Part shown: positions 2,961 through 52,277 of the stretch, in pieces
Position numbering within the stretch: the stretch's first letter is position 1
How the letters are laid out: every line of letters starts with the position of its first letter
From: Thermoplasmata archaeon
GTDB lineage: Archaea; Thermoplasmatota; Thermoplasmata; Lutacidiplasmatales; UBA184
DNA: 54,969 nt
Reading direction: 5' to 3'
NCBI GenBank assembly: GCA_022750415.1
Contig: JAKIVT010000004.1
Coordinates: 1-54,969 of the forward strand
Notes under the pieces: generated by a model
Told to the model about the DNA's origin: nothing
Databases searched by the model: none
What the model saw: only the letters and a program-made list of their open reading frames with translations
Made by a program: the position numbers and the translations under genes

Positions 2961-2990
2961 CGCATCCCGGCTTACGAGGCGGGGCGCTCG

Positions 2991-7958: not shown

Positions 7959-8075
7959 CGGCTCGCAAGGCGGTGAACTGCCGAAAAACCATTCGCCTGA
8001 CGCCGGGACGGTTGATTCTCGAATTGGATTCGGTCCATGACGCTCAAATACCCCGACCCATGTCCATGATACACT

Positions 8076-9026
8076 GTGACAGGGTCCGGGGACCTGCCCA
8101 CGGTAGCCGCTGCTCCCAGCGGGCCCGCTGCCTGTTCGATGTGCGGCGCCCGGCATCGGGTGCTCGACGCCGCCCGGATGGAGGAGCACTGCGGAGAGTG
8201 CGGCCTCGTCTTCGAGGACGCGGCCATTATCGCCGCCCCGCCTCGGATCTCCGACGACCCCGGCTCCGATGGTTCCGGGCGGGGGATTGGTCCCTTTTCC
8301 ACTCCCGGCGGGAGCCGCCGGGCGCTCGGTTCGGTGTTGAGCGGCTCCCGAGACGGACAGGGCCGCCCGCTCGGGTGGCACCGCCGCTACGAGTTCCAGC
8401 ACCTCAACCGGGTATCCCGCCGGCAGACGTCCCGCGCGATCGAGGGCCCGTTGGAACGGTCCGAGGCTCGGACGGAGATCGGGCAGTGTGCAGCGCGACT
8501 CACACTGCCCCCGGTGGTCGTCCAAGAAGCCGAGCGAGTGTATCGGGAAGCCAAGGTCCGAGGTCTCTTCCGGGGCCGGAGCCTCCCTTCGAGCGTCGGC
8601 GCCACGCTCTACGCCGCATGTCGGCGCTACTCCTTGCCCCGCACCCTCGGGGAGGTCTCGAAAGCCGTTGGCGCCCGTCGGTCCGAGGTCGGACGGGCGT
8701 TCAAAGTTATCCAGCGCGGCGGCGCGGCCCCGGTCCAGGCGGTCGGCGCTCGCGCGTTCTTGGCCCGGTACGCGGAAGAGCTCGCGCTATCGGCCCAAGT
8801 TCGGCAGACCGTGGAAGAGATGCTCGAGGTCGCGCACGAGGACCCGGAGCTTTCCGGACTTTCCCCGCACGGGCTCGTGGCGGCCTTGATCTACCTGGCC
8901 GCGGAGCGGAACGGCGAGCGCCGGTCGCGAGCGCAGGTGGCGCGCGTGAGCGCCGTCACCGAAGTGACGCTCCGCTCGACCAGCCGGCTCGTCGAGCGGC
9001 TGTTGCACCGGACCGGCGCCGCGTAA
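8076..9026 (+). CDS. tfb: transcription initiation factor B
   Basis: Zn-ribbon CSMCGARH...HCGECGLVFED; WHRRYEFQHLNRVSRRQTSR B-reader/linker; two cyclin repeats (SSVGATLYAACRRYSLPRTLGEVSKAVG; LVAALIYLAAERNGERRSRAQVARVSAVTEVTLRS). Confidence 0.95.
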   Translation: MTGSGDLPTVAAAPSGPAACSMCGARHRVLDAARMEEHCGECGLVFEDAAIIAAPPRISDDPGSDGSGRGIGPFSTPGGSRRALGSVLSGSRDGQGRPLGWHRRYEFQHLNRVSRRQTSRAIEGPLERSEARTEIGQCAARLTLPPVVVQEAERVYREAKVRGLFRGRSLPSSVGATLYAACRRYSLPRTLGEVSKAVGARRSEVGRAFKVIQRGGAAPVQAVGARAFLARYAEELALSAQVRQTVEEMLEVAHEDPELSGLSPHGLVAALIYLAAERNGERRSRAQVARVSAVTEVTLRSTSRLVERLLHRTGAA

Positions 9027-9038
9027 GGTCGGTCGACC

Positions 9039-9263
9039 TCACTTCGTGAGGTAGTAGCCCGCGGCTTTCTCGCGGACTTTCCGACGGGCGAACCCCTTCG
9101 TCTGGAGTTCCTGCAGCGCGTTCATCACCATCGTCTTCGGGAGCTTCACCGTCATCGTCACCCGCTCGGCGGTCCCCATCTTCTCGTCGCTGAGCATCCC
9201 CATCTCCTTCAGCGACTTGTACACCTTCACCGCGTTCGGTGAAAGCTCGTCCTCGATCGCCAT
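9039..9263 (-). CDS. small winged-helix/transcriptional regulator-like protein
   Basis: MAIEDELSPNAVKVYKSLKEMGMLSDEKMGTAERVTMTVKLPKTMVMNALQELQTKGFARRKVREKAAGYYLTK. Confidence 0.7.
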   Translation of the reverse strand: MAIEDELSPNAVKVYKSLKEMGMLSDEKMGTAERVTMTVKLPKTMVMNALQELQTKGFARRKVREKAAGYYLTK

Positions 9264-9388
9264 TCTCCGTCCCCGGTCGGACCGACGGATGCGGTGAGAT
9301 AAGCGATTCCCCGTTCGGAGACTCGCCCACCGGCCCACCAACCTCCGGGCCGAAGGGGACATGACCGCGTCGCGGGTGGTCCGCCCTC

Positions 9389-10459
9389 GTGCCAAACCTC
9401 GGGCTGCTCCTCTGGGACGAACGCCTGCGGGCGTACGACTTCGGACCGGGTCACCCCTTCCAAATTCGATACCGGGCCGAGGCGGCGCGGAACTTGGGGG
9501 ACGGCGCAGCGAGCCCGGAACGGGGCGACCGACTCGCCTCCTCCGGGCCGATCGAGCCGGCGTCGCGGGAGTCCCTCAGCCGGTTCCACACCGCCGCGTA
9601 CCAGGACCAGGTGCACGAGTTTTCCGCGAGGCCCAGCGGCTCGTATCTGGACGGAGGCGACACGCCGGCCTTCCCCGGGTGTGAGGTGGCCGCCGCGCGG
9701 GTCGCGAACGCGGCCGTGAGGGGACTCGAGGCGATCTCGGAGGGGCGGTTCCGTCGGGCGTTTTCCCCCGCCGGTGGCCTCCACCACGCGCACCCGGACC
9801 GGGCGAGCGGTTTCTGCATCTACAACGACGTCGCGGTCGCCATCGCGAACGCCCTCCGGCCCGGCGGGCCGTATCGCCGCGTCGCGTACATCGACATCGA
9901 CGTCCACCACGGCGACGGGGTGATGTACGGTTTCTACGACGAGGGCCGGGTGCTCGACGTCGATTTCCATCAGGACGGACGGACGCTGTTTCCGGGAACG
10001 GGAGCGGCCTCGGAGACCGGCCGTAACGACGGATCCGGCCTCAAGGTGAATCTCCCCCTCCCCCCGGGGGCGGGCGACGGGACCCTCGTGCCCTTGTTCC
10101 GTCGTGTTGTCCCCCCGATGGTCCGGGACTTTCGGCCCGAGTGGATCGTTTTGCAACACGGGGTCGACGGCCACGCGGGCGACGGGCTCGGAGGGCTCGA
10201 GTACTCCGACGCGGGGTACGCCGCCGTCCTCGATACCGTCCTCGAGTTGGCCCAGGAGGTCTGCGGAGGGCGCCTGCTCGTCACGGGCGGAGGAGGGTAC
10301 GACCGCCACAACGTGTCCCGGGTGCTGAGCGCGGTCGGTCGGCGTCTCGCCCGGGAAGAACCGGAGACGGCCCTCGGGACGCCGGAGGAGGAGCCCTGGG
10401 TCGACACGGTTCTCCGGGACCTCGAACCCGCCCTAGGCCGTCGGTTCCCGTCCGAGTAA
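9389..10459 (+). CDS. histone deacetylase/AcuC-family deacetylase
   Basis: HAHPDRASGFCIYNDVAVAIA; VAYIDIDVHHGDGVMYGFYDEGRVLDVDFHQDGRTLFPGTG; GGGGYDRHNVSR. Confidence 0.94.
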   Translation: MPNLGLLLWDERLRAYDFGPGHPFQIRYRAEAARNLGDGAASPERGDRLASSGPIEPASRESLSRFHTAAYQDQVHEFSARPSGSYLDGGDTPAFPGCEVAAARVANAAVRGLEAISEGRFRRAFSPAGGLHHAHPDRASGFCIYNDVAVAIANALRPGGPYRRVAYIDIDVHHGDGVMYGFYDEGRVLDVDFHQDGRTLFPGTGAASETGRNDGSGLKVNLPLPPGAGDGTLVPLFRRVVPPMVRDFRPEWIVLQHGVDGHAGDGLGGLEYSDAGYAAVLDTVLELAQEVCGGRLLVTGGGGYDRHNVSRVLSAVGRRLAREEPETALGTPEEEPWVDTVLRDLEPALGRRFPSE

Positions 10460-11487: not shown

Positions 11488-12837
11488 CTACCAATTGGCG
11501 CGGCGTTCGCGCCGCGGTTCGGCGGCCGGTCGACTTGCGCCGCCGGACCGGCCCCGATTCGGAGGCCGCCCCCGACCCCGGTCGCGGTCGCCCCGCGGTG
11601 GGCCTCGGCGCTCCCCGCGTCGGCCCCCGCCGCCGCGGAACTGACCGGCGCCCGCCTCGGAACGGTCCGGAGCCGCCCGCTTGTAATCGAATCCCGGGAT
11701 CAGGGCCCGGCGGATCTCCACGCCGAGGCGCTGCTCGATCCGGTGCATGTCGTCCTCCTCTTCCCGGCCGACGAGGGAGAACGCATCGCCCAGGCGCTGG
11801 GCCCGGGCGGTCCGTCCGACCCGGTGGATGTACACGTCGGGTTCGCCCGGCACATCGTAGTTCACCACGTGGCTGACCCCCTCGACATCGATCCCTCGGG
11901 CCGCGATGTCGGTGGCCACGAGGACCCGGTGGTGGCCGGTCTTGAACCCGTCGAGCGCCTTGACCCGCTGCGACTGGCTGCGGTCGCCGTGGATCACGGT
12001 GGCGTTGACGCCCTTGAGCGTCAACTGGCGGGCCAGCCGGTCGGCCCGGTGCTTGGTGCGAGTGAACACCAGGACGCTCGTCATCGTCTGGTCGGTCAAC
12101 AGTTCCACGAGCAGGTCGGTCTTGAGGTGGGTCGGGACGGGAAGGGCGAGGTGCGAGACCCCAACGGCGGCGGCCGCCGTGGAGTCGACCTGGACGGTCT
12201 TCGGCTCGTTGAGGAAATCTCGCGCGAGGCGGACGACCTCGGGGGGCATCGTCGCGCTGAACAGCATCGTCTGCCTCCGCCGGGGCAACCGGGAGAGGAT
12301 CCGCCGGACGTCCGGAAGGAATCCCATGTCGAGCATCCGGTCCGCCTCGTCGAGGACGAGGATCTCGAGGTTCGTGAAATTCACGTAGCCGCGGCTCATG
12401 TGGTCGAGACGGCGACCCGGGGTCGCCACGACGATTTCCGCGCCCCCGCGGAGGGCCCGCTCCTGTTCGCCCATCCCGACGCCCCCGTACACCGCCGCGC
12501 CATGGAGGCGCGTGTGCCGGCCGAGCTTGTCGAGGAACTCGTTCGCTTGGAGGGCGAGCTCCCGGGTCGGGGTGAGCACGAGCGCCAGGATCCGGCCGGG
12601 GGGATGGTCGAGCAGGCGCTCCAGGATCGGAAGGAGGAAGGCGGCGGTCTTGCCCGTCCCGGTCTGGGCGGTACCGATGAGGTCGCGGCCCAAGACGGCG
12701 TCGGGGATCGTGCGGCTTTGGATGGGGGTCGGCTCGGTGTACCCAAGCTCCCGGACTCCCGCCCGGATCGTGGGGTGGAGGGGCATGTCCTCGAACGAGG
12801 TCGGCTGGGACGGGCGTTTCTCTGGGTCGGTCGGCAT
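11488..12837 (-). CDS. DEAD-box RNA helicase with basic RG-rich C-terminal tail
   Basis: Q motif, AQTGTGKTAAFLLP, VLDEADRMLDMGF, FSATMP, HRVGRTAR; tail GGGGRRGERRGPPRGDRDRGRGRPPNRGRSGG. Confidence 0.97.
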   Translation of the reverse strand: MPTDPEKRPSQPTSFEDMPLHPTIRAGVRELGYTEPTPIQSRTIPDAVLGRDLIGTAQTGTGKTAAFLLPILERLLDHPPGRILALVLTPTRELALQANEFLDKLGRHTRLHGAAVYGGVGMGEQERALRGGAEIVVATPGRRLDHMSRGYVNFTNLEILVLDEADRMLDMGFLPDVRRILSRLPRRRQTMLFSATMPPEVVRLARDFLNEPKTVQVDSTAAAAVGVSHLALPVPTHLKTDLLVELLTDQTMTSVLVFTRTKHRADRLARQLTLKGVNATVIHGDRSQSQRVKALDGFKTGHHRVLVATDIAARGIDVEGVSHVVNYDVPGEPDVYIHRVGRTARAQRLGDAFSLVGREEEDDMHRIEQRLGVEIRRALIPGFDYKRAAPDRSEAGAGQFRGGGGRRGERRGPPRGDRDRGRGRPPNRGRSGGASRPAAEPRRERRANW

Positions 12838-13005
12838 CTTGGCGGTGGCACCACTGGGGGGGATTAACAGTACCCCCGGGGCCCGCGCCGCGTCCGTGCC
12901 CCGAGTTAGGTTGGGCCAAGAGACGGTTCCCGGGACCGATAATGCGCCTCGGTCGGTCGGCTCGATCGGGTCCGACTGGGAGGGTCACCAACGGCCGATT
13001 CGCCC

Positions 13006-14094
13006 CTAGAACCGACGTCCAGTGGTCGGGCGGTCGAGCCATTCAGCGTCCGTGGCGCGCACTCCTTCCCAGAGGTCCGCCGCGTCGAGCGCCCCGTCTC
13101 GCCCATCCAGACGCTGAAGGACGCTCGCCCGGGAAAGGACCGTGGCCGCGGTTCGGATGAGGTCCGCCGCGAGTCCTTCCTCCACCGACCCTTCCGGAGC
13201 CTCCTGGGCGAGCACCCCCTCCACCGCGTCGTCGCGTTCCAGAAGATAGTGGAGGTAGCCGCGGAGGAGTTGCTCCCCCTGGGTGGTCACCTCCGGGGTC
13301 GCGGTGGGGGGTGGAATCACTCCCAAAGTCCCCGGCTCGTCCCCGACCTCCGAGAGCTCGAACAGCATCCACCCGCCCGCATGGGTGGCGAAGGCGACTC
13401 GGCCATGGCCGGGGACGAAGGTGACCGGCAACCCCGCCAAGCCGTCCGACGGATCGGGCGGCTCCTCCGAAGGAAAGTCCTCGTCGACCGGCCACGGAAG
13501 CTCCCGGTGGAGACCCGCCCGGAGCGCGGCCAGGTCGTGGAGCGAGATGGACCGACCCCGACGGATCGCGTGCCGGTCGAGCTCCCGTTCCGTCCCCGAC
13601 CGGACCCATTCGGCGTCGGCGGCGTCGAGCTCGGCATCGAGGCCCCGGGGGCCAACGGGGATGGGCGGCCCCCCGCTCCACCGAAGGATACCGGCGGCGT
13701 CGATCCCCGGGCAGGAGAGCACGAGGCTCGCCTGGGCCCGGTCGGATACGTGCACCGTGATTGGAAACTGCTGGCAGGGCGTTGGGCGGGCCGCGTGGGC
13801 CCGGCAGCGGGTATCGGTCAGGAGCTCGCAGGCGCCCCCGTTCGGCCGGCTCGTCAGAAACGCCCATCCGCGCGCGCCCTCCACGAACTCGAGCTCGGGC
13901 TCGATCTGCACCAGCTGGTGGCGCTCGGCCGCGGTCACCGCCGGTTCCGCGAAGCAGCAGAGCCCGCAGCCCGGCCGGCACTGAAATCGGAAACCGCCGA
14001 GGAGGGCGAGGTCGATCCGGGGAAGCGCCAAGGGGATGTCGAGTCCCTCAGCGGCGACGGGCGGGCGGAGGGGGGAGGTCGCGGGGCGGAGCAT
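13006..14094 (-). CDS. YkgJ-like CxxxCxxCC cysteine-cluster protein
   Basis: FRFQCRPGCGLCCFAEPAVTAAERHQL...GACELLTDTRCRAHAARPTPCQQFP. Confidence 0.75.
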   Translation of the reverse strand: MLRPATSPLRPPVAAEGLDIPLALPRIDLALLGGFRFQCRPGCGLCCFAEPAVTAAERHQLVQIEPELEFVEGARGWAFLTSRPNGGACELLTDTRCRAHAARPTPCQQFPITVHVSDRAQASLVLSCPGIDAAGILRWSGGPPIPVGPRGLDAELDAADAEWVRSGTERELDRHAIRRGRSISLHDLAALRAGLHRELPWPVDEDFPSEEPPDPSDGLAGLPVTFVPGHGRVAFATHAGGWMLFELSEVGDEPGTLGVIPPPTATPEVTTQGEQLLRGYLHYLLERDDAVEGVLAQEAPEGSVEEGLAADLIRTAATVLSRASVLQRLDGRDGALDAADLWEGVRATDAEWLDRPTTGRRF

Positions 14095-14983
14095 ACGCGC
14101 ACGACGCCGGAGGAGCCGGACACTGCGCGGCCGACGCGGGCTGGACGATCGCGTTGAGGAAGAACCCGTACTCGAAGGCCGGGGGAAAGGCGGTGGTCCC
14201 GCCGAGGAACGCGCCGACGGAGTCGAAGTACGCCCGGATCACCGTCTGGCAATTGGGGCCGCACGGGTCGCAGACCTCGGGGTTGGCGAGGTCGGCCGAT
14301 GGGTCGACGGCCATCTCGGCCATCTCGTGGCTCAACGCGAGGGCGAACGTGTCCGTCGGGTCGGGGACCGTCAGGTTCTGCCCGAGGACGTTGACGAAGA
14401 GGTACGGGACGTTGGCCTTCCCGTGGTACCCCAGGACGCCCCGACTCGCGTCGGCGTCGGTGTTCAGAGGTCCGGGAGGATTGAGGACGACCACCGCCGA
14501 GGAATCCGCGGGCAAGCCCCCGGACGCCACCAAGCCGTTCACCCATTCCTGCAGGGTCGTATCGTTGTACACGCCCTTCGGGACCGAAACCGGGAGTTCC
14601 AGGGTGACCTCGGAAACGGCGAGCGAGTTCGGCCCGTACTGGGCCGCGTACTGGGAGATCGGACCGACTGCGCTCCCGGCGAACTTCCGAGCGGTCGCCA
14701 GATCCGCCGGGGAAAGCGCGTACTGTTTGCTCCCGGCCTGGACGGTGAGGTGAGCGAACGTGAGCGATCCCTGGAACAACGGGGCGACCGCCCGAGTGCC
14801 GACGGCCGGAAGCGTGCCGGGGGCAAGCGCATCCCGGAGGACGAACCGGATCGATGGGTCGGTCCCCTCGAGGAGGTTCGCGAATCCCGAGAGCGGTTCC
14901 ACGGCGGGGACGATGTCCGGACGGGTCGACTGGAGGTGGCGAGCGACCTTGAGCGACCGCGTGGCGCAGGTCCGGTCGGGCAT
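14048..14983 (-). CDS. hypothetical protein with HExxE-type metal-site-like motif
   Basis: LALSHEMAEMAVDPSADLANPEVCDPCGPNCQTV in an otherwise uncharacterised 311-aa ORF; overlaps the downstream YkgJ-like gene by 47 bp. Confidence 0.65.
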   Translation of the reverse strand: MPDRTCATRSLKVARHLQSTRPDIVPAVEPLSGFANLLEGTDPSIRFVLRDALAPGTLPAVGTRAVAPLFQGSLTFAHLTVQAGSKQYALSPADLATARKFAGSAVGPISQYAAQYGPNSLAVSEVTLELPVSVPKGVYNDTTLQEWVNGLVASGGLPADSSAVVVLNPPGPLNTDADASRGVLGYHGKANVPYLFVNVLGQNLTVPDPTDTFALALSHEMAEMAVDPSADLANPEVCDPCGPNCQTVIRAYFDSVGAFLGGTTAFPPAFEYGFFLNAIVQPASAAQCPAPPASCAYAPPRDLPPPPARRR

Positions 14984-41488: not shown

Positions 41489-42022
41489 TCACTTCGGGGG
41501 ACGATCCTGGATTCGGCCGGCATCGTGCGCCCATCGGATCCAATCGTACACCGGCGCGTCGACATCGATCTGCCAGAGGAGGGCGTTGCACTCACCGAGG
41601 TGCTGGAGTTCCTCCTCAACCAGATGCCAGAGGACCTCCCGAATCGGGATCGAGCAATCATGGTCCGACCCGTGCCCCTCGGGCCTCGCGATCGTGCGAC
41701 CGAGGTCGGCCTCGTGCAGCCCGACCATGAACCGCTGGACGTGGACCTGGAGGTACGTCTCGAACTCCTTCAACTGGGCGACGGTGGGCGGCTCTCCCGT
41801 GTCGGGCTCCGGGGGGGGGAAGGCTTCCGGAGAGCAGTTCCGTATCCAGAAGTACAGCGCCCCCTGGGAGTGCGCCAGGATGTCGAGGAGCGAGGGGTAC
41901 GACGCTCCTCGGTCGCGGGAGAGCTCCGCAGTCGGAAGCTTCGCGAACGTATCGAAGTATCCACGGCGGGCGACGGAAAGATAGGTGAACCAACGCTGCA
42001 GGGTTTCCAGCTCAGCGACCAT
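41489..42022 (-). CDS. DinB-like four-helix protein
   Basis: LETLQRWFTYLSVARRGYFDTFAKLP...YPSLLDILAHSQGALYFWI...IREVLWHLVEEELQHLGECNALLW. Confidence 0.8.
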   Translation of the reverse strand: MVAELETLQRWFTYLSVARRGYFDTFAKLPTAELSRDRGASYPSLLDILAHSQGALYFWIRNCSPEAFPPPEPDTGEPPTVAQLKEFETYLQVHVQRFMVGLHEADLGRTIARPEGHGSDHDCSIPIREVLWHLVEEELQHLGECNALLWQIDVDAPVYDWIRWAHDAGRIQDRPPK

Positions 42023-42686: not shown

Positions 42687-43286
42687 GTGATACAATCAAT
42701 GCGTTTCCATCGTTCGCTCGACCTGGTGCTCTCAGGCCCGACCCACCTGCGGGTCCTCCGCGCGCTCTGGAAGAATTCTACCCGACGGTTGACCGGACGC
42801 GAAGTTGCACGGGAGGCAAACGTCTCGACCGCTCAGACCGCCCGGGTGCTGAATGACCTGCAAGATTCAGGCATCGCACGTTCGGAAGCCGCCGGCAAGG
42901 CGTTCACCTGGCGATGGAACCAGGACCATGTCTGGGCAGCCCCGATTCAGCGCCTGTTCGAGGAGGAGGCTCGAATTCCCTCCGACCTATTCCGGGAACT
43001 CGCCCAAATGCTCCACGGGTTGCCGGTCAAGCAGGCGGCCTTGTTCGGGTCAATCCCACGGAGTCAAGAGCGTGGCGACAGCGACATCGATCTATTCATC
43101 GAAACTCGAACCGCCGAGTCGGCCGAAATCGTGCGCGACCAGCTCGCCCACCTACGAACAGGCCTGTGGCGGAAGTACGGGAACCCTCTCTCGCCCATCG
43201 TCATGACCACCTCGGAAGTCCGACGGAGTGCGAACACCGAACTTCTCAAGGCAATCCAACGAGAGGGAATTCTCATCGAAATCTAG
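42687..43286 (+). CDS. wHTH + MNT-type nucleotidyltransferase (antitoxin of HEPN/MNT pair)
   Basis: wHTH LTGREVAREANVSTAQTARVLNDLQDSGI; NTase QAALFGSIPRSQERGDSDIDLFIET (GSxxRxxxxxxSDIDL). Confidence 0.83.
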   Translation: MIQSMRFHRSLDLVLSGPTHLRVLRALWKNSTRRLTGREVAREANVSTAQTARVLNDLQDSGIARSEAAGKAFTWRWNQDHVWAAPIQRLFEEEARIPSDLFRELAQMLHGLPVKQAALFGSIPRSQERGDSDIDLFIETRTAESAEIVRDQLAHLRTGLWRKYGNPLSPIVMTTSEVRRSANTELLKAIQREGILIEI

Positions 43287-43294
43287 GTGCATCG

Positions 43295-43717
43295 ATGGCT
43301 CGAGTCAGAAATCTCCCGAAGAGTCGATCCGCCGTTTACCTGAGCCGAGCTCGGCAGCAGGAGCGGCAGATGGCCGTGGCGCTCGAGCATCATCGATGGG
43401 AGGCGGTCGGTCTCTGCGCGGTCCATCTCACCATTGCGTCGGTCGATGCCGTCACTTGCGCAAAACTCGGCCAAGTTTGGAGCGGGGAGGATCACGGGGG
43501 CGTTGTAGACCTTCTCCGAGAAACCGGCGTGGCAGGCGTCGAAGTGACGTCTCGTCAGGTCGCCTCAATCATGGAGTCGAAAACTCGGGTGGAGTATGGC
43601 GCCGAGCCAGCGTCCGGCCCACGGGCCACCGACATGGGAAAGCGGGCGAAACGCGTCTTCGAGTGGGCGGTCGCCACCCTCGGGTCCGAGGATACAGACC
43701 GATCCGACAGGCATTGA
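43295..43717 (+). CDS. HEPN-domain-like protein, partner of MNT NTase
   Basis: Follows the MNT gene by 8 nt; MAVALEHHRWEAVGLCAVHLTIASVDAVTCAKLGQVWSGEDHGGVVDLLRETG, YGAEPASGPRATDMGKRAKRVFEWA resembles HEPN helical pattern. Confidence 0.7.
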   Translation: MARVRNLPKSRSAVYLSRARQQERQMAVALEHHRWEAVGLCAVHLTIASVDAVTCAKLGQVWSGEDHGGVVDLLRETGVAGVEVTSRQVASIMESKTRVEYGAEPASGPRATDMGKRAKRVFEWAVATLGSEDTDRSDRH

Positions 43718-43794: not shown

Positions 43795-43811
43795 TAGTCC
43801 CGATCGGATTC
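43795..43811 (+). repeat. degenerate copy (C0) of tRNA-Gln 3'-end repeat
   Basis: TAGTCCCGATCGGATTC; 15/17 to TAGCCCCGAGCGGATTC. Confidence 0.5.
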
Positions 43812-44005
43812 AAGTCGTGGCGGGGGATGCCCCGCGATGGTCCGGGTCGGGACCTCCCTCCGAACGGTCCTTCGGTGGGGGATCACCGGGTCGAACTACC
43901 TCGGCTGGAAGGAGGCGAAACCGGCGCTCCGCCACCTCATGACAGGGCGCGGTCGAACACGCGGCGGGCGCAGACGTCGCCCCCGCTCGGCGGCTGGACG
44001 CTGTG

Positions 44006-44836
44006 CTAGCTGGAGCGTTGCGGCGAAGTCCAGACGACATCGTCGAACGACCGTCGGAATCCAATCCGATGGTAGAGGGGGAGCCCCATCGGGCTCGCCT
44101 GAAGGCAGGATTCCCGACACCCTACCGAGACGGCATCGGTGAGCGAGGCCACGGTCAGGGCGCGGGCTTGTCCCTGTCGTCGATGGGAGGGCAAGGTCGC
44201 CACGGCATAGATTCCGCCGAAGTAGGCTCCGGGAAGGAGCATGGAACAGGCCACGGGTGTCTGCCCCTCCCACGCGATGTAGCATCGCAGTGGCGCGAGA
44301 CGATGGAAGGGCACCTCGAAGAGCTCCGGGGGCGGAAGAAACTCCGATCCCCGGGCGAGGACGTCCGCGAACTGTTTCGACTCCTCGGGAGACGTTACCG
44401 CTCTCACGAGATGCCGGGCACCCACGTCCGCGCCACCGACCAGGGGAATCGGAACGGTCAGCGCCGGGCGGGACTCGACCTCGGTGAGGCCGGCTTCCTC
44501 TGCGGCGCCGGCCAAGGTCGGCAGGAGCGACTGGTCCCCTTCCAGCCTCCAGCGCTGCGGCCGCTCTCGAAAGAACTCCGCCGCCCGCTCCACGGTCCGG
44601 CGGGGGTCGCTGGGAGGGGTCGTGACGAAGGCCACATTGAGTTCGGTGAGGGCGCTCCCCGAGTCGATGAGCAAGAGTTCGCGGTCCTCCCGTGTGCGGC
44701 CGTGAGGAAAACCCTCGGCGAACCGCCGATAGGCCGCCCGGATGTTGCCGAGCGCCTCCATCGACCCAAGGCCCGGCCGGAGCACCCCTCGGTCCCTCTC
44801 TCGGCTTCCGATTGGGTCTCGCGTGCCCAGGGCCAA
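44006..44836 (-). CDS. GNAT-family N-acetyltransferase
   Basis: GIYAVATLPSHRRQGQARALTVASLTDAVSVGCRESCLQASPMGLPLYHRIGFRR. Confidence 0.82.
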   Translation of the reverse strand: MALGTRDPIGSRERDRGVLRPGLGSMEALGNIRAAYRRFAEGFPHGRTREDRELLLIDSGSALTELNVAFVTTPPSDPRRTVERAAEFFRERPQRWRLEGDQSLLPTLAGAAEEAGLTEVESRPALTVPIPLVGGADVGARHLVRAVTSPEESKQFADVLARGSEFLPPPELFEVPFHRLAPLRCYIAWEGQTPVACSMLLPGAYFGGIYAVATLPSHRRQGQARALTVASLTDAVSVGCRESCLQASPMGLPLYHRIGFRRSFDDVVWTSPQRSS

Positions 44837-44985
44837 GCCCCGGCAGGTAGAAAGTATGTCGTGAAATAAATCAAGTCGACCCGACGCTCCGGTCCCCCGG
44901 TCGGTTCCCTCCCCTTCGGGGGGACGCCCTCCTCCTCACCGAGGGTTTTACGGTTCGGACACTGTCCAGGGACCGGGTTTCTCGG

Positions 44986-46533
44986 ATGAGCCTCTCGCTG
45001 GATGTGCCCCAAGAGCTCTTGGATTTCCTCGTACGCCCGGGCCCCGCGAGCCTGCTGATCCGGGGCGATTCGGGAACCGGGAAGTCCCTGCTTTCGCTCT
45101 CCCTCCTCAACCTCTTCAACGGCCATCGGACCCTCCTGACCGCGCGCCCCGCGGACGCCGACGTCATGGCCCGCCATTCCGGGGCGACCTCGAGATACGG
45201 AGCGGTCGAAGTGATTTCCTCCGACCGTCCCAACCCTCCGGTCCCGACCGGAATTCGCTCCGACAATGGATTGACCGCCGGGAATCTGTCCGCGTCCGTC
45301 GCGTATCCCCGGTTCTTCGACCTGGCTCTCCGGGCGCTCAGCTCCGCTCCTCCCGCTCTCGTTGTCTTCGACTCGTGGGAGGCCCTCGCGAGTGACCCCG
45401 ACGGGATACCGAACAGGGACACCGGAACGGTTCCGTCGCGGGTCGAGCTCGAGCGCAAACTTTTCTCGGCCTGGACCAAGTCGTCGGCCCACCTGGTCCT
45501 CGTCTCGACCGATCGCGCTCGAAGCCAACTCGACTATCTGGCGGATGCCACCTGCACTCTCGAGCTTTCGGAGCTCGATGAGCGCCCGTTGCGCCTTCTG
45601 AGGTTCTCGAAACTACGCGGACGGTCGGGCCGGTCGATGGAGTACCCATTCACGGTATCGGAGGGGCACTTCCGCTGCTTCGCGATCGCCCCTCACGGGT
45701 ACCCCCTACAAAGCCACCGAACCGACCCCGACCCCGAGCCGACATCCTCGACGATGTGGCCGGGCTCGGCGGAATTCGCGGCGGTCTTCGGCCGACTCCC
45801 CCTCGGGGGTCTCACGCTGATCGAGGCGGACCGGGCGGTGCCGCTCGATGTCGTCCGGATGCTCACCGTGCCGATGATCGCCTCCGCGATCACTTCGCAC
45901 GCGGTCGTCATCATCGCTCCCCCCCCGAGTCTGACCGCCGAGGAACTCTGGAAACCGTTCTCCGATTCGATCTCTCCTGAGGCGTTTGCGGAACAAGTGT
46001 TCGCAGTCGTCACGACGGGGCCGAAAGAGGCCGGACCACCCTGGACCGGCGCGATCCACTCGGCGGAGGCCCCCGGGCCGATGGGGTTCCGGTTCGTGCC
46101 TCCCCGGGAACTGAGCCCCTCCGGACCCGTACATCGCGCCGGTCCGGAAGAATTCGCCGCCCAGCTTCCCGACCTCGAGGCGTTCATCGGTCGCTCCCGG
46201 CAGGATCACGCTCGGTCGCTTTCGATCGGGTACGCCGAGGGGAACCTCGCGATCGGGCGGGCGACGGGATTCCCGATGGACCCGGATTCGTACGCTTCCA
46301 CCCTCCGGGCTTACCTCGTGGGCGCGGGGGCGCACGGGGTGGCGATCGGGCGCCCGGAAGAGCCGCTGTTCGATACGATCCGGAGCTACGCCGGGTTGCA
46401 CCTCAACTTGCGTGCCTACAAGGGTCGGTACATCCTTCACGCGTCCCGGCCGTGGTCTCCGTCCTACGTCCTCGCGATTGCCGAGGACGAGGCGCCGGGG
46501 ATGGGTCCCTACCACTTGATCCCGCTGACGTGA
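44986..46533 (+). CDS. tandem RecA-fold ATPase-like protein, paralogue of 32821-34350
   Basis: PQELLDFLVRPGPASLLIRGDSGTGKSLLSLSLLNLF; MWPGSAEFAAVFGRLPLGGLTLIEADRAVPLDVVRML; C-term KGRYILHASRPWSPSYVLAIAEDEAPGMGPYHLI. Confidence 0.78.
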   Translation: MSLSLDVPQELLDFLVRPGPASLLIRGDSGTGKSLLSLSLLNLFNGHRTLLTARPADADVMARHSGATSRYGAVEVISSDRPNPPVPTGIRSDNGLTAGNLSASVAYPRFFDLALRALSSAPPALVVFDSWEALASDPDGIPNRDTGTVPSRVELERKLFSAWTKSSAHLVLVSTDRARSQLDYLADATCTLELSELDERPLRLLRFSKLRGRSGRSMEYPFTVSEGHFRCFAIAPHGYPLQSHRTDPDPEPTSSTMWPGSAEFAAVFGRLPLGGLTLIEADRAVPLDVVRMLTVPMIASAITSHAVVIIAPPPSLTAEELWKPFSDSISPEAFAEQVFAVVTTGPKEAGPPWTGAIHSAEAPGPMGFRFVPPRELSPSGPVHRAGPEEFAAQLPDLEAFIGRSRQDHARSLSIGYAEGNLAIGRATGFPMDPDSYASTLRAYLVGAGAHGVAIGRPEEPLFDTIRSYAGLHLNLRAYKGRYILHASRPWSPSYVLAIAEDEAPGMGPYHLIPLT

Positions 46534-46994
46534 CTGGGGAGCGGAAAGCGCCCCGGGCGACAGCTCTTCCCAAAGCGACTTCCGACCTGCGCGGGCCCGG
46601 GAGGTAGGGCTCGACGCCATCGTCCTCGCGGGCCGGGCGAGGCGAACGCCGCGTTCCCAGCAGGACGAGGGGCGGGCCGGTCTTTCCCGAAACCGAGAGG
46701 GAATTCGGTCGCAATCACCGGCCCCGGATGCCGAATCTTGGGGCAACCGCGCCCCCAGACGAACCATGGTGCCGGGTGGATTCGTCTGCACCTTCACGAC
46801 AATCCGGATACACGACGAACGGTAGGACCCAATCGAATTCTCGGGAGAGGATCGGGCCGCCCGCCCTCGGCCAAAATCCAAATCGCGAATGGTTTTGCGC
46901 CAGGACCCTTGCCGCCCCGGCTGGAGTCGGAAGGGGTGAAGGGATAGCCGCAATGGAGTTCGAACCCTGACGGGGCGATGCCCCCAGGCGTCCG

Positions 46995-47012
46995 TAGCCC
47001 CGAGCGGGTTCG
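46995..47012 (+). repeat. copy C1 of tRNA-Gln 3'-end repeat
   Basis: TAGCCCCGAGCGGgTTCG; 17/18 to the tRNA end. Confidence 0.85.
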
Positions 47013-47249
47013 CCGGCTCTTGCCGAGTGACTGGGAACCACTCCTGGCAGGGAGGTCCCTCTTGGACCGCACGCTCCCAGACGGCGTGGTTCTGCCCCCT
47101 CCGAGCCAGTTAGCCAGCCCGGCCCTCCCGAATCGGCCCGGTTGCCGACGGAGAACCATCCGTCCGACCAGCCTCTGCTTCTCCATGCCTCGCTCAATTC
47201 GAATTCAGCGGTGCCTTAATCTCAACTCGAGGCTGGGTACCAGGTTGAG

Positions 47250-47495
47250 GTGGGTTCGATGGGGTACGGTGAGTACGAGTGGGGCGGCCTGATGAAGGTG
47301 CTCGGAGGGTTCGTCATCCTCGTCGGGATCGGGTTGGCGGGCTACGTGCTGTACCTGAACCGGAACTCCTGGTTGATTGCGTTAGTTCTGTTCGTTGTAT
47401 TCTTGATCCTCGGGGCCATGTTGGTCTCTAAGGGCAGCTACACGCGGAAGCAGAACACTCCGGTGGGGCGCGTCGAGGGCACGACCGACAAGTAG
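47250..47495 (+). CDS. small two-TM membrane protein
   Basis: MKVLGGFVILVGIGLAGYVLYLNRNSWLIALVLFVVFLILGAMLVSKGSYTRKQ; the start may be 47259 or 47292. Confidence 0.65.
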   Translation: MGSMGYGEYEWGGLMKVLGGFVILVGIGLAGYVLYLNRNSWLIALVLFVVFLILGAMLVSKGSYTRKQNTPVGRVEGTTDK

Positions 47496-47673
47496 GGTCC
47501 GGCGTCCAATTTCACCTCCTGGAGCTCCTCAAACTCAACACCTCGGGGGAGGGCCCAACTGGAGACACTGGCGGTCCCGATAGCCAACCTAGTCAAACCG
47601 GCTGACTTTCCAATTTCGGTGTCCCGGTAGGACGGAGGGCGGTGATGGGTTCGCCCCTGTCGGATTCGAACGT

Positions 47674-47691
47674 TAGCCCCGAGCGGATTCG
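47674..47691 (+). repeat. copy C2 of tRNA-Gln 3'-end repeat (perfect 18-mer)
   Basis: TAGCCCCGAGCGGATTCG identical to 52205-52222. Confidence 0.93.
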
Positions 47692-48173
47692 TTTGCGGTT
47701 CCCTCCAAAAGGGATACACCACCGCCCGGGGGACGGAACACCAAGGCACCGGCGGGACGACCTGCTTCGCTCAATCCTGAAGGGGCGCAGAACCATCACC
47801 GGCAGCCCGAGCGGGGCGGGCAGCAAGCCGATTCCTGCCCCATCCGGATTCCGGCGCAAGTTGCTGCGCAATCCTATCGTAGAAGTTCGCCGATCCGCCG
47901 GAATCGGAGGTCTCCGGACCCCTGCGCAGCTTTGAGAGGGGGACCCAACTCTCCCCCTCTGCAAGACGAAAAGTTGTCTGACCCGACCGTCGCCCGGTGA
48001 CGGAACGGCTCGTGTCGAGCGCGGACCCGACCCGGTCGCCAGTAACGGACCGGTGGACCTTCTCCCACCGCATGAATCGCCAGTCCGGGGCGAACGCACG
48101 GCGAACGCCACCACTCCGGGGGTCCGAGTTCGATATGGACTCGGACGCCCACTGCGGTGGGTGGACTCCGTGG

Positions 48174-49193
48174 CTATCCTGCGTCGCGGACCCGCTTCAT
48201 CGCTCGGAGGGCCTTTAGCGTGATCCACTTGCTTGGCTTTCCGGGCTCCTCGATTCTGAGCGGGGTAACGCCCTTCCGATACTGGGCGGCCTGTGGCCCG
48301 GAAACGTCCGGATGCAACCGGTCGATTTGCCAGGTTCCATCTGGTCGTCTCTTCTCCGTAAGGAGCTTCAGGGCGGGCTGGAGTCGCCGGTCCCCTGCGA
48401 ACCCGAGTTGAGTAAGTACGTCGAGTCCGACCAGGATATCGTAGTAGTAGTGATTCGGATAGTGCAGTCGGAGCCAAGGGGGGTAAGGTGGCCCTTCGTT
48501 GAAGAGCCGGCGCCGGAGATAGAACTCCGCCCCCTTCGAGATTGCGGCCTCCATCTCGGATGTACGCTTCGACATGGGGAGCGACGCGAATGCAGCGAGT
48601 GGCTCCCAGACGTCCAGTGTTCCGGGCGTCCCGTGGGAACAGTTCCAGCCTCCGTCCTTGCGCTGGTCCTCGAGGAGCCAGTCGTACAACTTGCGAATTC
48701 GGAAGTCGTCGGCGTAGCCGAACTGGGTCATCATTCGGGCCGTGTTCCCGACTACGCAAGCCTCCTCGTGAAAGAAGTTGAACGGGGAGCTGAGCCGGAG
48801 CTTGAACTCGAACAGGAGTTCGGCAATCCGCTTGATCCGCGGGTCCGAGGCGTCGAGGCCGAAGTCGGCGAGGACCAATGCTCTCCAATTCGTGGAGAGG
48901 TACTTCGGGTAGTAGAGGAAGTCAATCCACCCCTTGAGACTCTTCGGCTCACGCAGTTCCCAGAACCCCTTCGGGCCTTGCGTACGGAGCTGGTCGCGGG
49001 CCCATCCGACTCGGGTGACTCTGGCGCGGGTCGCCCGAAGGTCTGGGTCGGATTCCTCGCGTCCGAGCAAGTCGACCAGGGTCGCGGCACGCACGACCGG
49101 CTGACCCTCCTCCAACAGCCACTGGACGACCTTCGCATCGCGATCGCGGTTCGTGGGCCCGAGCTCGACTTTCACTTTGGCGCCCGAATTCAC
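48174..49193 (-). CDS. terpenoid cyclase/prenyltransferase-type alpha-toroid repeat protein
   Basis: Repeat motifs LLEDQRKDGGWNCSHGTPGTLDVWEPLAAF and LLTEKRRPDGTWQIDRLHPD; helical repeats throughout. Confidence 0.78.
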   Translation of the reverse strand: MNSGAKVKVELGPTNRDRDAKVVQWLLEEGQPVVRAATLVDLLGREESDPDLRATRARVTRVGWARDQLRTQGPKGFWELREPKSLKGWIDFLYYPKYLSTNWRALVLADFGLDASDPRIKRIAELLFEFKLRLSSPFNFFHEEACVVGNTARMMTQFGYADDFRIRKLYDWLLEDQRKDGGWNCSHGTPGTLDVWEPLAAFASLPMSKRTSEMEAAISKGAEFYLRRRLFNEGPPYPPWLRLHYPNHYYYDILVGLDVLTQLGFAGDRRLQPALKLLTEKRRPDGTWQIDRLHPDVSGPQAAQYRKGVTPLRIEEPGKPSKWITLKALRAMKRVRDAG

Positions 49194-49403
49194 CCCAGTG
49201 TTTCAACTTTCCCCGCGGATCGAGGGTACGGCCAACCTTGCAACACCGGAAGCAGTGTCGGCCCAACGCCGGGTCGTTCTGGAGGCAGACGCGGCGTCCG
49301 ACCTCGATTGTTGACCACGGAGGAGCTTGGGCACGCGCCCAGGGGGCCACTCCCCCGATTTGTCGAGCCCATTCTCCGGGCTTACCTGAGCTCCGCCGAG
49401 GGA

Positions 49404-49420
49404 TAGCCCCGAGCGGATTC
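49404..49420 (+). repeat. copy C3 of tRNA-Gln 3'-end repeat (perfect 17-mer)
   Basis: TAGCCCCGAGCGGATTC identical to 52205-52221. Confidence 0.93.
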
Positions 49421-49531
49421 ACGGACAAATTCAGGCTGAAGCGGATGGATCCAAGAACCATCTGGCTCGGGGTCGTCTCGGAGAGTCTGGTCGCAAAGCG
49501 TTAAGAAAGTCGCCACCATTGACGCCATGGG

Positions 49532-49741
49532 ATGGTATCGTCGGCAACCACCGTACCCGTCCGCCCGGACACTCTGCGGAAGCTGAAGTCGTACAAGGTA
49601 GGCGATGCCACGTACGACGATGTGCTGAACGAATTGATGGAGGAGGTCCCACCACCCCAGTTTTGGCGGGAACACTATCGGCGTCTTCACGAGGATACCA
49701 GTGTCCCGCTGGCCGAAGTCAGACGCCGCCTGAAACTCTGA
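49532..49741 (+). CDS. RelB-like antitoxin (module TA1)
   Basis: TTVPVRPDTLRKLKSYKVGDATYDDVLNELMEEVPPPQFWREHYRRLHEDTSVPLAEVRRRLKL; 3 nt before the RelE-like gene. Confidence 0.8.
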   Translation: MVSSATTVPVRPDTLRKLKSYKVGDATYDDVLNELMEEVPPPQFWREHYRRLHEDTSVPLAEVRRRLKL

Positions 49742-49744
49742 TCG

Positions 49745-50008
49745 TTGACCGAAGTCTTTCTCCAGGCAAGCGCGGAACGTGAGCTCGCTCGGCTGCCTCG
49801 CCAAATTCAGATCCGCTTCGTCCACACCTTCGTCCTGCTTCTGGACGACCCCCGGCGGCGCCGACCTGGCCTCGACATTCGTCCCCTGAAAGGGGGAAAG
49901 TCGGCCTGGAGGGTGCGGGTAGGGGACTATCGGGGAATCTTCGAGTTGGACGAAGGTCGGGTAACTTTTACCCGGTTCGCGCATCGGTCGAAGGTCTACG
50001 ACCTGTAG
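49745..50008 (+). CDS. RelE/ParE-superfamily toxin (module TA1)
   Basis: FLQASAERELARLPRQIQIRFVHTFVLLL...LDIRPLKGGKSAWRVRVGDYRGIFELDEGRVTFTRFAHRSKVY. Confidence 0.88.
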   Translation: MTEVFLQASAERELARLPRQIQIRFVHTFVLLLDDPRRRRPGLDIRPLKGGKSAWRVRVGDYRGIFELDEGRVTFTRFAHRSKVYDL

Positions 50009-50058
50009 GCTGGGGGCCGCGCGCACGGCTCAGGGACGCGGGCCGCGATTGCGATTAC

Positions 50059-50430
50059 TCAGGGGGTGCCGATGAGGGCGACAAGGACCACCATCCACCT
50101 CGTGCCACGCTTCTGCCAGAGGCGGACGCTCCGCATGGCGAAGGCTCTCTCCCCGATGGCGTAGTCGGTTCTGCAGGCAACGGCGACCGCCGAGCCGAGG
50201 TCCCGGACTACTACCTCGCTGAGCCGAACCGAAGAGAAGGTCTTCCTCCTGGGCGGACGGTGTGCGGCCACGACGGAAGCCTTGAGGCTCACGCTCTGGC
50301 TCTCCGACTGGACGAAGAGGACGTCATCCGCGAGCAGTTCTTCGAAGATATCGCCAGTATCCGGATCCGCGCTGGCGTCGCCTAGACGGAGCTTCTCCTC
50401 TAGGGCAAGCACCTCTTCCTCGATGTTCAT
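50059..50430 (-). CDS. SnoaL/DUF4440-like NTF2-fold protein
   Basis: MNIEEEVLALEEKLRLGDASADPDTGDIFEELLADDVLFVQSESQSVSLKASVVAAH...WQKRGTRWMVVLVALIG. Confidence 0.68.
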   Translation of the reverse strand: MNIEEEVLALEEKLRLGDASADPDTGDIFEELLADDVLFVQSESQSVSLKASVVAAHRPPRRKTFSSVRLSEVVVRDLGSAVAVACRTDYAIGERAFAMRSVRLWQKRGTRWMVVLVALIGTP

Positions 50431-50527
50431 TTTGGATCCCCTTCCCCACGGTCGGCCGGACGGGACTCGCAGGGTTCGCGTGGTCATGACTAATTCGGGC
50501 TCGAAGGGAACCCCTGCCGAGCCGGGG

Positions 50528-50543
50528 AGCCCCGAGCGGGACT
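50528..50543 (+). repeat. copy C4 of tRNA-Gln 3'-end repeat, variant end
   Basis: AGCCCCGAGCGG (12/12) followed by GACT; 16-mer identical to 51390-51405. Confidence 0.78.
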
Positions 50544-50801
50544 ACCCCATCTTTACGACAGAATGGGTATCAATCCCGACGATGGTGCCTTTGTGCGCGG
50601 AACAAGCCACAGAGAAGGGCCGCTCTACTTCGAGTCCGACGCCGGTTGCTTCGTTATCCCGGGCCGGATTCGGCAGCGAATGCCGGCGAACAGCTGGGCG
50701 CCGCCTGAGGCGCGTGAATCCTCATCGGACTGGACCTCGGATTGACTCTCAGATAGACCGCCGGATCGGGGGCGGCCCCGGGCTCAGCAGAGCGACAGGA
50801 G

Positions 50802-51077
50802 CTACTTTGGGAGCCGCCGATACACGCACGACCGAGGTCCAAACCGAATGAATCGCGCTTCCGATCCATCCCAGCGGAAGATGCCCCGGTACGCGCCGAC
50901 CTTCAGGGTCCAGAGTCCACGGCCCCCTTCGAGGGGGTGCGTGTCAAACTCCCCGGGCAGGCGCAGGATGGTCGACCCCTGGAACCGAAGCAGCAGCTGA
51001 TCGAACCTCGTACGGGGCAGGGTCGGAAGTCGGCGGAGCGACGCAAACCCCTCCGGGCTGAGAGTTACCGGGACCAT
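50802..51077 (-). CDS. RelE/ParE-superfamily toxin (module TA2)
   Basis: VTLSPEGFASLRRLPTLPRTRFDQLLLRF...HPLEGGRGLWTLKVGAYRGIFRWDGSEARFIRFGPRSCVYRRL. Confidence 0.85.
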   Translation of the reverse strand: MVPVTLSPEGFASLRRLPTLPRTRFDQLLLRFQGSTILRLPGEFDTHPLEGGRGLWTLKVGAYRGIFRWDGSEARFIRFGPRSCVYRRLPK

Positions 51078-51296
51078 CTATCGAGCCGGGAGCCCGAGCC
51101 GCCGGCGGGCGGTCCCGTACGAGATCGCGGGACGCGTCAGCTCATGTTCGGCCCACGCGAGAAAGTCTCTCGGCGGGACAGCGTCCATGAACTCTTCCAA
51201 GATTTCAGCGTAAGTCCGACCCCCGGTCTTGTACAACTTGAGGCGACGGGCTGTGGACGTCGGGACCGTGATCGTCGTGGGCGGGTCCGCGAGCAT
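51078..51296 (-). CDS. RelB-like antitoxin (module TA2)
   Basis: TTITVPTSTARRLKLYKTGGRTYAEILEEFMDAVPPRDFLAWAEHELTRPAISYGTARRRLGL; abuts the toxin ORF. Confidence 0.8.
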   Translation of the reverse strand: MLADPPTTITVPTSTARRLKLYKTGGRTYAEILEEFMDAVPPRDFLAWAEHELTRPAISYGTARRRLGLPAR

Positions 51297-51303
51297 GCCA
51301 CCT

Positions 51304-51318
51304 CAATTGGTCCAATTG
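51304..51318. promoter_or_regulatory. perfect palindrome CAATTGGTCCAATTG, candidate TA2 operator
   Basis: 7-bp arms, 1-nt centre, 8 nt upstream of the TA2 antitoxin start (51296, minus strand). Confidence 0.5.
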
Positions 51319-51388
51319 GAATAAGGATTTCTGCAAGTCGCCCTCTGCCAGGAGAGGGCACTGCCCGGGCGGACTGAGCCAGGGAACG

Positions 51389-51406
51389 TAGCCCCGAGCG
51401 GGACTC
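51389..51406 (+). repeat. copy C5 of tRNA-Gln 3'-end repeat, variant end
   Basis: TAGCCCCGAGCGG (13/13) followed by GACTC. Confidence 0.82.
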
Positions 51407-51507
51407 ATGCGAATCACGACAGCGTGGGTGCCGTTCCACCTTTCCGGGACGGGCGGTCTATGCTGGTGCGCCCCGTGGCGGAGGGACGAAGGGTTGAAAC
51501 ACTTAAG

Positions 51508-51524
51508 TCTATGGAGCCCATAGA
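51508..51524. promoter_or_regulatory. perfect palindrome TCTATGG-AGC-CCATAGA over the TA3 start codon, candidate operator
   Basis: 7-bp arms; contains the ATG at 51511; acttaag AT-rich element just upstream. Confidence 0.5.
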
Positions 51525-51747
51525 TTTCGGCGTGCCGACAGACACGATTACGAGCATCCAGGTCCACGAATCCACGAGGCGGCTCCTCGAGAGTCGGAAG
51601 CGAGGTGGAGAGAGCTACGACGACGTGATCCTCGACCTCATCGACCAGGAGCCTACGGAGGCGGAGATTCGAGAGTTCGATCGGAGGATGCGGAAGGGAG
51701 GTCCGGGCATCCCCCTCGAAGAGACACGCAAGCGGCTCGGACTGTAG
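51511..51747 (+). CDS. RelB-like antitoxin (module TA3)
   Basis: DTITSIQVHESTRRLLESRKRGGESYDDVILDLIDQEPTEAEIREFDRRMRKGGPGIPLEETRKRLGL; start set to the ATG in the palindrome rather than 51424. Confidence 0.8.
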   Translation: MEPIDFGVPTDTITSIQVHESTRRLLESRKRGGESYDDVILDLIDQEPTEAEIREFDRRMRKGGPGIPLEETRKRLGL

Positions 51748-52041
51748 GTGCCCCCGGCGTACAGAGTCGAGCATCGCCCGGCGGCCGAGCGCGAGCTCGA
51801 TCTGCTCCCGCGGGAAACGCAGCTCCGCGTGATCGCGGCCCTCGTGCGACTATTATTTCGACCGATGGGTGGAGACCCGATGCTCGACATCCGACAAGTA
51901 CGAGATGCAGCGGGGATTTGGCGGCTGTCCGTCGCGGGTTGGAGGGTGTTCTACCGCGTGGACGGCCGGGTGGTATCGATTGTAGGCTATCGGCCCCGAA
52001 GTTCCTCCACGTACTCCGACCTCCGAAAGCCTCCCCGATAG
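51748..52041 (+). CDS. RelE/ParE-superfamily toxin (module TA3)
   Basis: PPAYRVEHRPAAERELDLLPRETQLRVIAALVRLL...LDIRQVRDAAGIWRLSVAGWRVFYRVDGRVVSIVGYRPRSSSTY; GTG start abutting the antitoxin stop. Confidence 0.88.
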   Translation: MPPAYRVEHRPAAERELDLLPRETQLRVIAALVRLLFRPMGGDPMLDIRQVRDAAGIWRLSVAGWRVFYRVDGRVVSIVGYRPRSSSTYSDLRKPPR

Positions 52042-52204
52042 ACTCGCCCTGCCTGTCAGGGGTACGATGGTCCCGGACATCGATCGGTCGATGGGAGTCT
52101 AACCCGGCACCGTGCCGGTCCGGACAGGCCCTCAAAGGGTTCGAGGTAGGAGAAATGGGGGGCGGGCCTCGAATCTTGCCGACTCGGGCAGATGCGTAGA
52201 CGGG

Positions 52205-52277
52205 TAGCCCCGAGCGGATTCGAACCGCTGTCGCCGGCTCCAAAGGCCAGCATGCTTGGCCACTACACCACGGGGCT
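52205..52277 (-). tRNA. tRNA-Gln (anticodon UUG), intronless, 3' CCA not encoded
   Basis: Minus strand AGCCCCG-TGGTGTAGTGGCCAAGCAT-GCTGGCCTTTGGAGCCGGC-GAC-AGCGGTTCGAATCCGCT-CGGGGCT-A; full cloverleaf, anticodon loop CTTTGGA; followed by CCCG, not CCA. Confidence 0.95.

Follow-up and report, generated by a model that had tools for sequence, protein, structure and literature searches.

Elements that are flanked by attachment (att) sites but lack an integrase, and are moved by the enzyme of a neighbour, are familiar as cis-mobilizable elements (CIMEs; listed in PMC5704250) and from accretion, where they are usually single large remnants beside an autonomous element. The Tycheposons of Prochlorococcus are small tRNA-targeted elements with accessory cargo; they are found in marine bacteria and usually carry their own recombinase. 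In archaea, tRNA-targeting elements of the pNOB8, SSV and SNJ2 types use a tRNA 3' end as attB and carry an integrase (PMC8371274), and the cryptic elements of thaumarchaea, 2.6-98 kb in size, are likewise integrase-bearing (PMC6563490). Archaeal integrons and clusters of attC sites lacking an integron integrase (CALINs) are also known, with attC folding and IntI (PMC9668308). The closest precedent for the locus treated here is the tandem ssrA islands of Dehalococcoides. These lie downstream of the tmRNA gene, have 20-bp copies of its 3' end as their boundaries, and their insertion was placed in the T-arm region; 15 of the 31 islands are without an integration module, the recombinases are serine recombinases, mobilisation with neighbours was proposed, and the vcr-type islands measure ~12 kb (PMC3146451). 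The present locus is an array of small gene cassettes at a tRNA-Gln(UUG) gene of a Thermoplasmata archaeon, and lies in a window of 54,969 nucleotides (contig JAKIVT010000004.1, here C154, of a 2.0 Mb genome in 219 contigs).

An original prediction, made from the letters of the window, had proposed the repeated insertion of very small, integrase-less elements at one tRNA, forming an integron-like array. Comparison with relatives makes it highly probable that this is an archaeal cassette platform, in which the tRNA-Gln(UUG) 3' end acts as the primary site for very small integrative cassettes and the recombinase is supplied in trans. The array, its site specificity, the homology of whole cassettes with breakpoints in the core, the reordering of cassettes, their exchange beyond the divergence of core genes and insertion on the tRNA side are directly supported.

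The tRNA-Gln(UUG) array and its distribution

The tRNA-Gln(UUG) gene, the presumed landing site (the analogue of attB or attI), lies on the minus strand at 52203-52277 (ARAGORN; Rfam tRNA, 60.4 bits) and adjoins a pyruvate kinase gene at 52368. The same tRNA-Gln stands beside the pyruvate kinase gene in three of the nearest named pyruvate-kinase relatives, which are metagenome-assembled genomes (MAGs) of Thermoplasmata archaeon. Within the tRNA, the shared core TAGCCCCGAGCGG occupies 52205-52217 and is the complement of the discriminator, the acceptor 3' strand and the T-stem 3' strand. On the 3' side of the gene, same-strand copies of its last 12-18 bases stand at 51389, 50528, 49404, 47674, 46995 and 43795, giving seven when the gene itself is counted. 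Searching the window for TAGCCCCGAGCGGATTCG with up to three mismatches returned five matches, all on the plus strand, at 43795 (three mismatches), 46995 (one), 47674 (none), 49404 (one) and 52205 (none, the tRNA), and zero on the opposite strand; shuffled windows gave a mean of 0.29 matches and never five. The same-orientation copies described in the original prediction are thereby confirmed, and the 17-mer on which it relied is not common genome-wide, as at up to two mismatches it occurs five times in the array and twice elsewhere in the 219 contigs, both times with two mismatches. The sites at 50528 and 51389, each a core of 12-13 nucleotides (nt) followed by a variant end, which it had listed as near copies, are also present and form a distinct end class that is common to the relatives G092 and G010 and is not due to chance.

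A 13-mer scan of 78 genomes of the same genus, combined with locus recovery, yielded 55 tRNA-Gln loci, nearly all of them in those genomes. At least one copy is borne by 26 of the 55 loci, at least two by 14 and at least three by seven; where at least 5 kb of flank is available, copies are seen at 20 of 31. The largest array is that of G092, in which the copies span 10.7 kb, and the array is a genus-level feature. Site specificity was examined with a 19-mer control over all tRNAs in the recovered loci, most of them from the window's own genome and G092. The 55 tRNA-Gln(UUG) loci hold 44 same-strand copies on the 3' side and one on the opposite strand, with 0 and 1 on the other side, and every other tRNA species has 0-2 copies, with zero or one at each of the other loci examined and an array at none of them. 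Arrays at other tRNAs, which had been suggested as a target for search together with a tyrosine integrase, are absent from the own genome and G092, where only isolated single copies occur. Two such near-perfect 3'-end copies in the own genome lie 1.5 and 3.7 kb downstream of a tRNA-Ala(CGC) (L154) and a tRNA-Leu(CAG) (L262), and are probably ordinary single integrated elements. The relatives' genomes are MAGs and mostly fragmented; two contigs (G062:C11 and G079:C52) terminate precisely within the 3' repeat of tRNA-Gln, which is what assembly breakage at the repeat would produce. A viral carrier of the site was considered and rejected: the sole IMG/VR match, on a 4.5 kb tailed-phage-like contig without a tRNA, looks like a coincidence within a coding sequence.

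Exchange and reordering of whole cassettes

Across the arrays, 61 closed segments range from 0.46 to 9.5 kb (median 1.57 kb) and cluster at 0.5-2.5 kb, and several recur whole in other species, including three from the window. Cassette A (51389-52205) corresponds over its whole length to G092 12451-13266 with 87.8% nt identity, and a truncated version is found in G010; cassette B (50527-51389) corresponds to G092 13919-14781 at 82.0%, where it abuts the tRNA; and cassette C (49404-50527) corresponds to G010 7181-8306 at 78.9%. Read outward from the tRNA, the order is A-B-C-D-E-F in the window, B-X-A in G092 and x-C-A in G010; therefore, inheritance of the units as one block does not apply. The pyruvate kinase genes adjoining the tRNA in the same pairs are 71-72% identical in DNA sequence, as against 79-88% for the cassettes, and this excess in cassette identity argues for horizontal exchange.

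In base-by-base alignments, homology between shared cassettes runs into TAGCCCCGAGCGG and then switches to the tRNA or to the next cassette. Three locus comparisons further place a new cassette precisely between an older cassette and the tRNA: G008 has an extra 2.3 kb cassette relative to G097 (and G022), the comparison of G074 with G021 reveals an extra 1.7 kb cassette, and B stands against the tRNA in G092 where A does so in the window. Together, the junction alignments and these before-and-after pairs locate the breakpoint in or at the edge of the 13-base core. No insertion away from the tRNA was identified in a search that was not exhaustive. Neither of the two outcomes that the original prediction had named as refuting it, a 17-mer common genome-wide and segments that are always co-inherited, is thus seen. 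From one relative to another, individual segments may be missing, stand in a different order or be newly inserted, and their homology stops at the repeat; these single-segment differences support the repeated insertion of very small elements at one tRNA.

Cassette ends

The core copies are followed by a small number of recurrent end sequences, in which the control region 100 nt further in (0.06-0.09 bits per position) is far exceeded in information content. Types I and II share one layout, namely the core, 24-25 nt, and then a distal box that reads GGGATAC in type I and GGGTATC in type II. Type I ends (28 sites) have ATTCGCCTGCTGTTNCAG and then GGGATACACC at that distance past the core, while type II ends (11 sites) have GACTA or GGCTA followed by GGGTATC at the same spacing. 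Class III ends (16 sites) continue as tRNA sequence (ATTCGAACCGCT) and include those of integrase-bearing elements; a further 13 sites are unclassified. The type I end (48 nt) is almost confined to arrays at tRNA-Gln, with 26 sites at E < 3.2e-7 in the 78 genomes, every one on a contig that has a core-copy array or a tRNA-Gln. Across 150 class-wide genomes, just two matches fall outside the genus, in a sister genus, one of them ~1 kb from its tRNA-Gln. Both type I and type II sequences are common to dozens of different cargoes. One array (L124) contains two copies of a gene of ~640 aa, both with type I ends (2858-5214 and 7782-10137), and in another species this gene stands inverted and has type II ends (L145, 4411-6710); therefore, cargo can switch both end class and orientation. 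At the proximal end, a second tRNA-like core, GGATTCGAACCA, is present in 16 of 122 cases and ends exactly at the 13-mer, with 0-2 occurrences at any other offset.

Within the window, type II ends follow the core copies at 51389-51401 (TAGCCCCGAGCGG-GACTCATGCGAATCACGACAGCGTGGGTGCC), a junction also in G092, and at 50528-50539 (AGCCCCGAGCGG-GACTACCCC...TGGGTATC), both on the plus strand as are all the following. The copy at 47674-47720 has a full type I end (TAGCCCCGAGCGGATTCGTTTGCGGTT...GGGATACACC; 43.8 bits, E 1.6e-12), that at 46995-47036 a type I end (E 3.2e-10) and that at 49404-49420 a degenerate one (E 9e-7 with the type I model). At 46778-46813 there is what may be the decayed remains of a type I half-site (E 0.0037), pointing to a further, older boundary near 46767. 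The interval 46767-46995, which sets this half-site 228 bp from the next copy, is possibly a mini-cassette or a deletion scar.

The recombinase and the proposed mechanism

Tyrosine integrases are encoded in two of the 61 closed segments. In four relatives (G004, G007, G063 and, as a fragment, G035), PF00589 genes abut the tRNA-Gln or its copies. Because these integrases are of one kind and sit against this tRNA or its copies, it is very probable that the tRNA end functions as an attB in the genus. The element of G007 measures 9.5 kb, and those of G004, G007 and G063 bear class III ends. A different picture is given by G092, G086, G097 and G091, whose arrays have type I ends. In each of the four, one PF00589 protein was found, of the high-scoring XerA-like class, and there are zero matches to PF00239 or PF16795; this includes G092, with the longest array, where XerA is the only PF00589 protein. 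The suggested search for a tyrosine integrase in the own genome was answered by XerA on C143 (240 bits, cut-off 220) and one other integrase on C39. Apart from XerA, the array carriers have no one resident integrase in common. The C39 integrase was rejected as a dedicated enzyme, having a 91% relative in G010 and being absent from G092; the element is itself common to two distant species (G000:C39:2719-3930 and G010:C28:105927-106979, integrase 91% identical). Serine recombinases were likewise set aside, as PF00239 occurs in two of eight genomes (G000 and G010) on contigs other than that of the array, and so were SSV-type integrases, with PF16795 in none of six genomes. None of the integrase loci recovered shares a stretch of at least 14 bases with any tRNA.

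As integrases are present in two of 61 segments and four array genomes have a XerA-class protein as their only PF00589 protein, we infer that the cassettes are mobilised in trans. Each cassette would form a circle carrying the 13-bp core, and recombination between this core and the tRNA would insert it next to the tRNA. The copy brought in by the cassette would restore the 3' end of the tRNA, and the copy that it displaces would come to lie at the far side. With further rounds of insertion, an array of uniform orientation would build up, its most recent member next to the tRNA; the cassettes vary in cargo (toxin-antitoxin pairs, enzymes, signalling proteins) and share end classes. The circular intermediate and tyrosine-recombinase chemistry are, like the trans action, inferred parts of this scheme. 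A recombinase in trans would be needed because nearly all cassettes are without one, the candidates being the integrase of a larger, passing element that uses the same tRNA, the chromosomal XerA, or another enzyme.

The identification of the enzyme as XerA, a special case of the proposed platform in which the cassettes would exploit Xer and use a tRNA end instead of dif, draws on its being the sole PF00589 protein found in the four type I array carriers and on the high score of the C143 protein. Xer recombinases act at dif (PMC8371274), however, and carriers without a detected integrase may just be incomplete genomes, and we regard this identification as rather unlikely. A broader formulation, a distinct archaeal integron-like system that evolved independently of IntI/attC and in which one tRNA gene is the permanent capture site, dedicated composite sites delimit exchangeable cassettes of one gene or one operon, and a host recombinase (possibly XerA) shuffles these cassettes between species, is put forward as a tentative possibility, falling somewhat short of probable.

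Several considerations weigh against the cassette platform. Shared cassettes could be partly inherited, with faster change in the core genes, although vertical inheritance combined with fast pyruvate-kinase change in some pairs is unlikely. Copies do not decay with distance from the tRNA (copy rank against mismatches, Spearman 0.03). Type I and II ends differ from those of the integrase-bearing elements, whose integrases need not move the cassettes. Lastly, in fragmented MAGs a recombinase would go unnoticed if it were carried by an unbinned plasmid or virus; short repeats also break assemblies, and several contigs end inside the repeat.

Alternative explanations

Ordinary accretion would have the segments be remnants of larger integrase-bearing elements at the tRNA, from which the integrase and most genes were deleted, leaving tRNA 3'-end scars with residual genes. 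Integrase-bearing elements do use the same tRNA, class III ends resemble theirs, and there is precedent for islands arranged in tandem at a single tRNA or tmRNA gene (PMC3146451). Yet whole cassettes of 0.8-1.1 kb recur across species with both ends unchanged and nothing left of any larger element, segment sizes cluster, and type I/II ends are shared among dozens of cargoes. Independent decay would not yield identical small units. Accretion is thus considered improbable.

A true integron, a CALIN-like attC array merely touching a tRNA, would follow the same logic of small cassettes in an array, and archaeal integrons and CALINs do exist (PMC9668308). An inverted repeat (TAGCCCC..GGGATA) is visible by eye in the ends; nevertheless, an attC-like or tRNA-minihelix fold was rejected, as RNAalifold on 23 aligned type I ends gave no supported structure, with two predicted pairs and none covarying. 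At one site (L121, oriented 4273), where the core reads AAGCCTC, the distal box is altered to match and reads GAGGCTAC (complement TAGCCTC). This one case of possible covariation hints that the distal box mirrors the host tRNA acceptor. The primary site is a tRNA, and the scores of the tested integrases, 20-150 bits, come nowhere near the cut-offs for IntI of 265/435; with integrase_gron, the best score is 150 for XerA against a cut-off of 265, and the C39, L190 and L128 integrases reach ~21-23. Membership among integrons is therefore highly improbable, and the likeness to an integron drawn in the original prediction holds for how the array works (one polar landing site, recurrent ends, cargo of mostly one gene or one operon, few recombinase genes), while the array is not itself an integron, with attC folding and IntI both lacking. 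Segmental duplication or deletion through homologous recombination between the repeats of 13-17 bp is scarcely credible, as is a recurring regulatory motif that has nothing to do with insertion, since short direct repeats can mediate deletions but this leaves unexplained the uniform strand, the restriction to the 3' side of one tRNA, the class-specific arms and the whole cassettes reordered in other species.

Cassette cargo and the distal flank

The gene content of the window segments is as originally described. Cassette A is a toxin-antitoxin operon on the plus strand, with an antitoxin-like gene (51460-51747) and a ParE toxin (PF05016; 51748-52041). Cassette B has two small minus-strand genes that are toxin-antitoxin-like, one DUF7557-like below threshold (51078-51296) and one without a Pfam match (50802-51077). 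In cassette C, a DUF7557-like antitoxin (49532-49741) and a ParE toxin (49745-50008) are followed by a minus-strand DUF4440/NTF2-fold gene (50059-50430). Cassette D (47674-49403) encodes an alpha/alpha-toroid protein (48174-49193, minus strand) that is weakly squalene-hopene-cyclase-like from sub-threshold Pfam matches. Cassette E (46995-47673) encodes a small membrane protein (47250-47495), has a relative in G010 at oriented ~3820-4500, and bears at its proximal end the tRNA-like pseudo-core CCCCTGTCGGATTCGAACGT (47654-47673). Segment F (43795-46994), possibly two old cassettes, holds a GNAT acetyltransferase (44006-44836, minus strand) and a KaiC/GvpD-like P-loop ATPase (44986-46533). Over all arrays, a segment in most cases has a single gene or one short operon, in either orientation, and the 93 predicted cassette proteins, from approximate gene calls with a home-made codon score, include 10 PIN toxins, four VapB-like antitoxins, four ParE toxins, four RHH proteins and five guanylate-cyclase domains, alongside methyltransferases, hydrolases, glyoxalase and GNAT domains.

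The most distal recognised core copy (43795-43811, plus strand, 15/17) is homologous to the most distal copy of G092 and is judged a true boundary, as first proposed, because its flank is homologous to G092 up to that repeat. This flank holds a two-gene module on the plus strand (42687-43717; MNT/HEPN-like by eye) that is 85% identical to G092 right up to the repeat, and may be the oldest cassette or chromosomal flank. A gene of ~177 aa at 41489-42022 (DinB-like by eye) has counterparts within or close to arrays, at 1-10 kb from the tRNA, in several relatives, among them G095 (L204) and G025 (L123); an array that formerly extended to the left of 43795 is thus possible.

Comparison with known systems

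If the proposal holds, the integron principle of a fixed capture site and tiny exchangeable units that use another's recombinase can arise from ordinary tRNA-targeted integration. It would offer a concrete path, open to testing, by which uncultured archaea of one genus could exchange genes rapidly. It would also supply a list of mobile small genes, many of them toxin-antitoxin pairs, and well-defined sites from which to trace the recombinase. No earlier description of such a system was found in the open literature, most subscription papers being outside that search.

The Dehalococcoides ssrA islands are likewise tandem, at one tRNA-like gene and bounded by copies of its 3' end; however, they are bacterial, use serine recombinases, measure ~12 kb in the vcr type and carry an integration module in about half of cases, whereas the archaeal units have a median of 1.57 kb, an integrase in two of 61, dedicated end classes and an order that differs between species. 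With integrons and CALINs the locus shares a small-cassette array mostly without integrase, fed at one primary landing site by insertion at one end, and a cargo rich in toxin-antitoxin genes; it differs in having a tRNA gene as its site and cargo genes in both orientations, and attC folding and IntI were not found. As in tRNA-targeted elements, a direct repeat of the tRNA 3' end stands at both boundaries, and the elements of G004, G007 and G063 have a tyrosine integrase next to att as the archaeal ones do; unlike those, the closed segments mostly lack an integrase of their own, and the PF16795 integrase of the SSV type is absent from the six genomes tested. The segments are att-flanked without an integrase as CIMEs are, but are many and tiny, their ends are conserved, and in many cases the genome has no autonomous element that could be detected. 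The locus is set apart from the known cases by the small size of its units, by dedicated ends that these share, by how few integrases they carry and by their reshuffling from species to species.

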